DNA of 39,316 nucleotides from Rubripirellula obstinata. GTDB lineage: Bacteria > Planctomycetota > Planctomycetia > Pirellulales > Pirellulaceae. Positions 19,536 to 20,942 of the stretch are shown here, piece by piece. The first letter of the stretch is position 1. Every line of letters starts with the position of its first letter. A program made the translations under genes and the position numbers. The DNA lies in the NCBI RefSeq assembly GCF_001642955.1, contig NZ_LWSK01000054.1:1-39316 (forward strand), given 5' to 3'. Under the pieces are notes generated by a model that saw nothing but the letters and a program-made list of their open reading frames with translations, did no database searches and had not been told where the DNA came from.

Positions 19536-20942
19536 GTGAAGATGAACACGATGCCGAAAGTGACTAAAGCCGAAGACCGAAGCCGACCAAAGACGTGGCG
19601 GATCCGCTGGTCTATCGATCGCAAGCGGCGGACGATGATGTGGAAGGGCGACGAAGGGCAGGCCGAAGTTATCCGCGTTCATGTCGAACACTTGCTTGAT
19701 TCAGCCGAGCGAACCGAGCCACCGCATCGAACAACGCTTGACTGGTTGGACAGCTTGAAGGATCACGAGCACATCAAGTTGGTTGATAAGGATCTGGTCG
19801 AAGCTCGCGCGGTGGCTGAACCGCCGCGAACCCTCAAGGTGCTTTACGATGCATTCTTGAAATCAAAGAAGTCCATGAAAGAATCCACCAAGAAAACCTA
19901 CGGCCAAGCGTGGACGGTTCTGGATAAGCACTTTGGTGAGACTCGCGCGATTGACTCGATCACCAAAGCCGACGCGCTGGTTTTTCGTGAGTGGCTGGCG
20001 ATTGAGGGCAACGAACGCGATAAGGAACGTGACGACCTGGATGTGAACACCGTCCGCCGGCGAATCGGCATCTGTCGCCAAATCTTCAAACACGCCATCG
20101 AATCGAAGTGGCTGACGGAAAATCCTTTCCACGGAATCGCAGCGTCCGTCCATGCGAACCCCGAGCGGTTCCACTACGTGACTGAGCAACAGTTCGACCG
20201 GATCATTGAGTTCTCGCCACACAGTGCTGAGATGCGTTGCATCGTCGCCCTGAATCGCTTGATCGGTTTCCGCATCCCAAGTGAGATTCAAACGCTGAAG
20301 TGGTCCGACATTGATCTGAGCGACGATGACCCCCATCTTCGAATCAAAGCTCCGAAGACAGAGCATCATCAAAAGCGAGGCCTGCGGACCGCACCGATCA
20401 TGGCTGACTTGCGGCCGTACCTCGAAGACTTGCGGGACTTAGTGAACCCAGGCGTTGAAACTCCGCTTTCGTCCCCAGTGTTCCCACGGTTCGTTGACGC
20501 CAGTGATTCAGCGATCCGTTCAGCGATGCTGAAGATCATGAAGCGTGCCGGCGTTAATCCCTGGCCCAACCTATTCAGCAACGGTCGGAAGTCGGCGATC
20601 ACGGACCTACTTCGGGCAGGTCACGACGTGGTGGACGTGGCATCGTGGGTGGGAAACTCGCCCGCGGTCATCTGGGAGTACTACGCGATGGCGACCGCTG
20701 AGGCCCGGCGGCGGGCAGCGACTCAGCCGAACTCAAAAGTGGTCCACACTCCAAAACGTGGACCACTTTGTGGACCAAATCAGCCCCTAGACCCCGCCAG
20801 CAGCAACCAGCATAGTGCCCGACGCATTGAGAAAACGCCGGTAAAAGACGGTTCAAGCGGGTCACAAGGGGAATCGAAATGGGCGATGAGGGACTCGAAC
20901 CCCCGACATCCTCGGTGTAAACGAGGCGCTCTAGCCAACTGA
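19536..20942 (+). CDS. int: Tyrosine recombinase/integrase whose 3' end lies in tRNA-Val
   Basis: The integrase catalyses site-specific integration and excision. The frame has 468 codons from a GTG at 19536, with ATGs at 19542 and 19551 as alternatives and no clear ribosome site. The core-binding domain lies at about 100-200 (LYDAFLKSKKSMKESTKKTY). In the catalytic domain I read R246 (LIGFRIPSEIQTLKW), K274 (KAPKTEHH), R351 in the box normally HxxR (NLFSNGRKSAITDL), W371 (VASWVGNSPAV) and the nucleophile Y382 or Y383 (EYYAMAT). This degenerate HxxR form is usual in planctomycete integrases, as I recall. The last 18 residues, MRDSNPRHPRCKRGALAN, are encoded by the tRNA gene on the opposite strand, so the native C-terminus differs when the element is excised. 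Confidence 0.88.
   Translation: MKMNTMPKVTKAEDRSRPKTWRIRWSIDRKRRTMMWKGDEGQAEVIRVHVEHLLDSAERTEPPHRTTLDWLDSLKDHEHIKLVDKDLVEARAVAEPPRTLKVLYDAFLKSKKSMKESTKKTYGQAWTVLDKHFGETRAIDSITKADALVFREWLAIEGNERDKERDDLDVNTVRRRIGICRQIFKHAIESKWLTENPFHGIAASVHANPERFHYVTEQQFDRIIEFSPHSAEMRCIVALNRLIGFRIPSEIQTLKWSDIDLSDDDPHLRIKAPKTEHHQKRGLRTAPIMADLRPYLEDLRDLVNPGVETPLSSPVFPRFVDASDSAIRSAMLKIMKRAGVNPWPNLFSNGRKSAITDLLRAGHDVVDVASWVGNSPAVIWEYYAMATAEARRRAATQPNSKVVHTPKRGPLCGPNQPLDPASSNQHSARRIEKTPVKDGSSGSQGESKWAMRDSNPRHPRCKRGALAN
20740..20777. promoter_or_regulatory. Candidate integrase arm-type sites, right
   Basis: There are two direct copies of ygtggacca (20757-20765 and 20769-20777, 12-bp period) and one inverted copy, tggtccaca, at 20740-20748, about 100-140 bp inside the right core and within the 3' part of int. 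The direct pair mirrors the left pair at 11626-11646. Both pairs are followed by ccagcagcaacc. Confidence 0.6.
20878..20893. other. Right attachment site core (attR)
   Basis: This is the second copy of aatgggcgatgaggga. It includes the tRNA-Val discriminator base, the 3' acceptor strand and part of the T stem. The tRNA is intact on this side, so the element enters at the tRNA 3' end and leaves the gene functional. Confidence 0.88.

Follow-up and report, generated by a model that had tools for sequence, protein, structure and literature searches.

Integrase genes that extend across their own attachment site have been described before. In phage Mx8, and likewise in Mx9, attP lies inside int, and integration creates a new 3′ end of the gene, which alters the specificity of the integrase but does not inactivate it (PMC6070905). 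The Islander paper names Mx8 together with SSV integrases as extending across attP (PMC4383910). In the available portions of these two sources, Mx8 (with Mx9) is the bacterial example cited for such integrases (PMC6070905, PMC4383910). The suicidal integrases of the archaeal SSV type carry att within the gene, which is rearranged by integration into a tRNA gene; as far as the accessible part of the corresponding review goes, self-disrupting recombinases are considered exclusively archaeal (PMC8371274). A comparable arrangement occurs in a repressor gene: in mycobacteriophage BPs, attP lies inside this gene, and integration shortens the C-terminus of the protein and alters its function (PMC4557955, in the part available). 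In a literature search covering titles and abstract openings of the papers listed, with most subscription papers outside its scope, we recognised no description of an attP-spanning integrase family in planctomycetes.

The window analysed here is a 39,316-nucleotide stretch of the Rubripirellula obstinata genome, and it contains an integrated element at 11529..20893. The element is bounded by two plus-strand copies of the core AATGGGCGATGAGGGA. The left core (attL side) lies at 11529..11544; the right core (attR side, 20878..20893) corresponds to the 3′ end of the integration target, a tRNA-Val gene with anticodon tac on the minus strand (20880..20953). Corresponding core positions are separated by 9,349 bp. 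The two cores are identical over 16 bp and 88% identical across 24 bp, and the core 14-mer TGGGCGATGAGGGA has only two copies in the 6.58-Mb genome assembly, both inside the window. For this element neither a circle nor an empty site was seen, and an empty-site synteny search was without result. Next to the right core lies the tyrosine integrase gene int (19536..20942, plus strand), encoding 468 residues in its integrated form; its true start is probably the ATG at 19542, because relatives start at MNTM. The protein matches PF00589 (E 1.9e-9, above the cut-off), PF13102 (E 1.7e-6) and the PHROG integrase family (E 1.6e-31). It displays the conserved catalytic Arg, Lys, Arg and Tyr of tyrosine recombinases: in an alignment of 17 family sequences R246, R351 and Y383 are invariant and K274 is nearly so. 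The catalytic HxxR site reads NxxR, and Asn349, which we take to occupy the usual His position of this motif, is nearly invariant across the same 17 members.

According to the first-pass annotation, int crosses the right core as TGG GCG ATG AGG and stops inside tRNA-Val, the left core carries the same codons in the same phase followed by a frame open for 95 codons, and recombination between the cores would lengthen the protein by about 77 residues in the circle. The sequence bears this out. The crossing occupies 20880-20891, with the ATG at 20886 being int codon 451; the equivalent ATG at 11537 opens the left frame, which continues in int phase to 11824 (11537..11824, plus strand). When attP was joined by a script, the frame kept its phase and gave 545 residues versus 468 in the integrated form. 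The proposed tRNA-encoded tail of 18 residues needs a small correction: the figure is right when counted from the core ATG, but the full tRNA-derived tail, the last 20 residues of the integrated protein (WAMRDSNPRHPRCKRGALAN), is antisense to tRNA-Val. Catalytic Tyr383 lies upstream of the core at residue 449, and integration leaves the catalytic domain intact along with its conserved residues. This differs from SSV-type integrases, in which integration parts the N-terminal from the catalytic portion; here only a post-catalytic part is lost. Moreover, Phage_integr_3 (PF16795), given as the SSV-type domain in the available part of PMC8371274, was absent from the Pfam matches of the window's integrase at E up to 0.01.

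The open left frame of the window does not by itself amount to a significant observation. Two Markov simulations put the chance of 92 open codons at 7% and 11%, and random frames of the window put it at 17%; the frame becomes significant through the comparison with the family. The family is large. Counting the genome of R. obstinata itself, the integrase has relatives in 117 of 241 Pirellulaceae genomes (E up to 1e-30) and in 10 of 119 genomes drawn from the phylum (E up to 1e-25). A search with a five-sequence alignment returned 304 relatives in named genomes, of which 80 were kept; 79 of these have record titles pointing to Planctomycetota, and one comes from Aquabacterium olei. Cultured planctomycetes with integrase relatives include Lacipirellula limnantheis and Adhaeretor mobilis. 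The window's integrase as a single query had no match in the genome contig collection. Across the 97 stretches analysed (two of which, L058 and L087, display one identical integrase), the 3′ end of int meets a minus-strand tRNA in 78; in 73 of the 78 int is open into the tRNA, and in 66 it stops inside. The 80 named loci, whose genomes partly overlap this set, behave similarly, with int open into the tRNA in 66 of 70 and no tRNA at the remaining 10. None of the 80 includes the extension within the int ORF, as expected if they are integrated.

A second core was accepted if it had at least 13 bp, began at the tRNA 3′ end and lay within the fetched stretch. By this rule a left core was found for 32 of the 73 loci; it was absent from the fetched stretch in 41, many of them on short contigs, and when six loci were extended to 40 kb, five still yielded no core of at least 13 bp. 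In a control search of reversed sequence the best match was 11 bp. In all 32 elements of this first set the frame in int phase is open past the left core, for 33-107 codons (median 62.5), at 13 kinds of tRNA. A later batch added six of six open frames of 41-81 codons and a further target, tRNA-Lys, and single elements in phase were L144 (41 codons), G216 (80 codons) and G231 (71 residues from the core); G231 had no tRNA call, so a 19-bp repeat at the int end served to place it. Thus, in the set of chromosomal elements with a placed left core and int open through the core, the left frame in int phase is open in 41 of 41 elements, over 33-107 codons, at 14 kinds of tRNA and in all three phases. 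All 41 comparable chromosomal elements thus support the proposed swap of the integrase C-terminus between integrated and excised states, and so do the natural fused ORFs and the selection acting on the extension. Four more elements (L081, L084, L090 and L110) are also phase-matched, although they form a set biased by its route of discovery through the extension profile described below.

Some placements required a choice. Left matches shorter than 13 bp (L076, L105 and L136) were left out of the count; L105 would give 52 open codons. The 11-bp left match of L076, after which the int phase closes within 3 codons, was considered as a counterexample and set aside, as it has no blastn or tblastx match to the comparable end of L078; judged by eye, it resembles an insertion-sequence fragment. 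For L084, a 33-bp repeat was rejected as the core, being in another phase and resembling an arm repeat, and an 18-bp repeat adjoining the extension was taken instead.

Could the open left frames reflect only chance, or constraints on attP as DNA? For the window alone this would suffice, given the 7-17% above, and some of the frame is constrained by repeats resembling arm sites. Controls with other frames, permutations, Markov models and random frames gave the same picture: chance holds for the window taken singly and fails for the family. At the left ends of the first set, the other two frames have a median of 12 codons versus 62.5 for the int phase, and only 20 of 64 attain 33 codons. In 28 of 32 elements the int phase provides the longest frame (the exceptions being L056, L101, L125 and L128), as it does in four of the six of the later batch (not in L143 or L147). 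The phase of int relative to the tRNA end is 0, 1 and 2 in 12, 9 and 11 elements, respectively, and the left end follows every time. The binomial p value of the phase test is 3e-10, but it was computed as if elements were independent and is too small because they are related (21 clusters at 50% integrase identity). Related extensions keep the frame despite a differing target or phase, as in the pairs L107/L112, L055/L142 and L065/L078. The extensions are also conserved as proteins. Of 496 extension pairs, 103 outscore every shuffled pair; the three best-scoring pairs have dN of 0.23, 0.30 and 0.31 versus dS of 0.54, 1.73 and 1.61, and the weakest contrast among the 14 pairs listed is that of L065/L078 (0.38 versus 0.59). 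These values show purifying selection on the extension in close pairs. Hairpin-only alignments of L055/L122 and L046/L055 give pN of 0.30 and 0.25 versus pS of 0.97 and 0.92, which again argues against mere chance or constraint on DNA. We therefore regard that explanation as highly improbable for the family.

What does the extension look like? A profile was built from 22 of the 32 extensions, picked by eye for ELxxxWxxLxxxxRxxLLxxAR and excluding that of the window. It matches left-end frames in eight further elements: L081, L084, L090, L110 and G231 are in int phase, L124 and L095 are exceptions, and for L058 no core was found. A clear motif is missing from 10 of the 32 extensions, the window's included; the end of the latter, QLSPEGVTRLLSLLREL, gives a weak profile match of 7.2 bits over extension residues 69-93. 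In the subfamily to which the window's element belongs, G106 and G231 carry the motif in phase-matched extensions. The window's extension was not found in 21 other genomes of the genus. AlphaFold predicts the extension to be a two-helix hairpin, with block pLDDT of 95-97 at its core, and a comparison of the hairpin model with PDB gave no match. These predictions were made from separate alignments; a mixed alignment had misplaced extension rows. The conserved hairpin positions (W, L, R) are internal, and the extreme ends are variable.

This pattern bears on the possibility that the extension is a stability signal, with the C-terminus targeting the circle form of the integrase for degradation while the tRNA-tailed form is stable, or the reverse. 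Precedents exist in BPs, with a degradation tag encoded by a gene containing attP and a proteolysis signal at the C-terminus of the BPs integrase (PMC4557955, in the part available), and the C-terminus of the integrase does change upon integration here. In BPs, too, attP lies within a gene whose product has its C-terminus changed by integration, but there the gene encodes the repressor and the lost part carries an ssrA-like tag, whereas here the frame crossing the core is that of the integrase itself. A stability signal at the C-terminus fits poorly with the conserved part, which is predicted to fold into a hairpin and is conserved at internal positions while its ends vary, and we consider such a signal unlikely.

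A fusion that recombination would produce in the circle is found in nature. IMG/VR contig 3300009431_001185 (L166, 25.6 kb) has a single 524-codon ORF composed of integrase, core peptide and hairpin extension, with similar repeats flanking the core on both sides. No tRNA was called near its int end; a 21-nt piece of its core, however, occurs in 3 of 246 genomes, always in tRNA-Glu(ctc), and matches the 3′ ends of these genes. The predicted model of this protein, based on 34 sequences, consists of the integrase domains, a disordered region (411-488) with the core peptide and two helices (490-499 and 504-519), and it structurally matches Tn1549 Int, XerA and lambda Int. In two assembled contigs, L095 and L128, the integrase frame of a neighbouring element passes the tRNA-Glu core into the next extension; the fusion covers most of the integrase in L095 and only the catalytic part in L128. 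Both are apparent tandem arrays at tRNA-Glu.

Relatives with the int frame and the extension out of phase would speak against the swap. Among chromosomal elements meeting the placement rule there were none, but relatives outside that set do include exceptions. On the chromosomal side, int of L103 stops 71 nt upstream of the tRNA; L124 has an apparent frameshift, its extension fitting a different frame; and in L095 the tRNA-side int ends 2 nt short of the tRNA, with the extension out of that frame. The extension is part of the int ORF in one of 15 viral-contig relatives, namely L166. In the viral contig L168 (700-1300), int enters a tRNA-Arg-like core, and the hairpin follows in a frame other than that of int, a break that may reflect decay, a contig error or recombination. 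In L169 and L170, also viral contigs, the int frame ends about 10 codons or fewer after a core-like peptide, and no hairpin was found. The remaining 11 viral-contig relatives have neither the extension nor a core-like peptide in the int ORF, and the window's subfamily had no match among viral contigs. Because of L168-L170, L103, L124 and L095, the architecture is a rule for chromosomal tRNA elements with placed ends and not for every relative.

The attachment site itself appears to be nested in the gene. When the 260 nt preceding the right core are compared with the 260 nt that follow the left core, 31 of 32 elements share a 10-mer, about 0.12 per element being expected by simple arithmetic. 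Tandem 8-mers occur in 19 of 32 left arms at a spacing of 10-14 bp, mostly 12, compared with 0.4 expected from shuffles. The repeat sequence varies among elements. In the window, GTGGACCA-N4-GTGGACCA stands on both sides: inside int (20758..20777, plus strand), with the core 101 bp downstream, and inside the extension (11627..11646, plus strand), with the core 82 bp upstream. Arm-type integrase sites are a concept known from lambda Int, and we infer that the flanking repeats represent such sites. As the repeats are so read, P arm, core and P′ arm would share one reading frame in the circle. A separate set of GYGGACA-type repeats with a 12-bp period was observed at 18798-18900, within ORF 18339-19403; their period and GGAC core are like those of the arm repeats of the window's element, and they are possibly further binding sites or iterons.

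Several other features of the element and its surroundings were noted. A minus-strand gene at 12009-14195 encodes a protein resembling a tail tape measure (PHROG E 5.5e-42). Of the ten element ORFs scanned, it alone was assigned to a virion family, so the element is perhaps a phage remnant or satellite. The element DNA had no match to phages, nor did int to plasmids and phages by tblastn. About 285 bp beyond the left core lies a perfect 24-bp inverted repeat with a 3-nt loop (11194-11244). The R. obstinata genome has six related integrases, four of them with phase-matched left ends (the window, L101, L157 and L084); for L155 and L156 the left core was not found on the contig. The tRNA-Val(tac) site beside an S21 gene is shared by the window's element and that of L059 (G003), with int in phase 0 in the former and phase 1 in the latter, and the left end is phase-matched in each.

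How close, then, is this family to Mx8? The likeness, here derived from genome sequence, is that attP lies in the 3′ part of int and that integration produces a new 3′ end. At the level of sequence, Mx8 Int has no significant BLASTP match to the window's integrase (best E 0.11), hhalign gives a probability of 85 over 183 columns only, and the Mx8 C-terminus does not match the extension profile (0.6 bits). The difference is that here a whole family shares one module at many tRNA targets. Judged by these comparisons, Mx8 is the nearest precedent in logic, while its integrase is no more than distantly related and shows no kinship at the C-terminus; the window's integrase would work like Mx8 Int but is not classed as one.

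Comparison of sequences has shown the phase match across chromosomal elements, the conservation of the extension and the in-frame repeats resembling arm sites, and we consider it very probable that int is an attP-spanning integrase gene, in the window as in its family. In the excised circle, int would traverse attP (P arm, tRNA-derived core, P′ arm) and continue into the extension, which in most relatives would be a small helical hairpin on a flexible linker. Recombination by the integrase would take place between this core and the 3′ end of the target tRNA. Integration then leaves the 3′ part of int behind as an orphan frame at the opposite end of the element, and int itself, its catalytic domain whole, ends in a short tail antisense to the tRNA. 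In the integrated forms observed, the tail beyond the core is never longer than 23 residues and is read antisense from the tRNA or the sequence just past it; in L057, translation already terminates at a stop codon that starts within the final core bases. The many tRNA sequences and all three phases may be tolerated because the core lies in a disordered linker. The frame is continuous with int only in the circle, and its conservation implies that selection acts at the circular stage, on elements as they enter, or within tandem arrays.

As for the role of the extension, we tentatively suggest, somewhat short of an even chance, that it is a circle-only module promoting the integrative reaction, be it by oligomerisation, synapsis or partner binding; once it is lost, the integrase would be damped or redirected, and one gene would report its own integration state. 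Such a regulatory meaning would accord with the precedents of Mx8 (PMC6070905) and of the BPs repressor (PMC4557955). The extension might instead be an ordinary part of a working integrase, the integrated form simply being weaker and excision needing a second intact copy, with no dedicated switch. The six related integrases in one genome could provide such copies, and the archaeal review, in its accessible part, makes an externally supplied complete gene the directionality factor (PMC8371274). Unlike in the archaeal case, however, the integrated form here keeps its catalytic domain and residues whole, and we find the ordinary-domain explanation somewhat unlikely.

An attP-spanning architecture matters in several ways. 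Integrases annotated in integrated elements of the window's family may miss their true C-terminus, and the orphan frame helps to locate the other end of an element. The switching of tyrosine integrases between integration and excision becomes testable through two natural forms of one protein. Overall, an arrangement that has been cited for Mx8 and Mx9 seems to be general in a large integrase family of one phylum, whose members share a module that is lost on integration. It is conceivable, if not quite probable, that this planctomycete clade uses the conserved C-terminal hairpin of its integrase as a sensor of integration state, removed by the very product of recombination, which would place directionality within one gene; a core situated in a disordered linker would let the module survive changes of target and phase.
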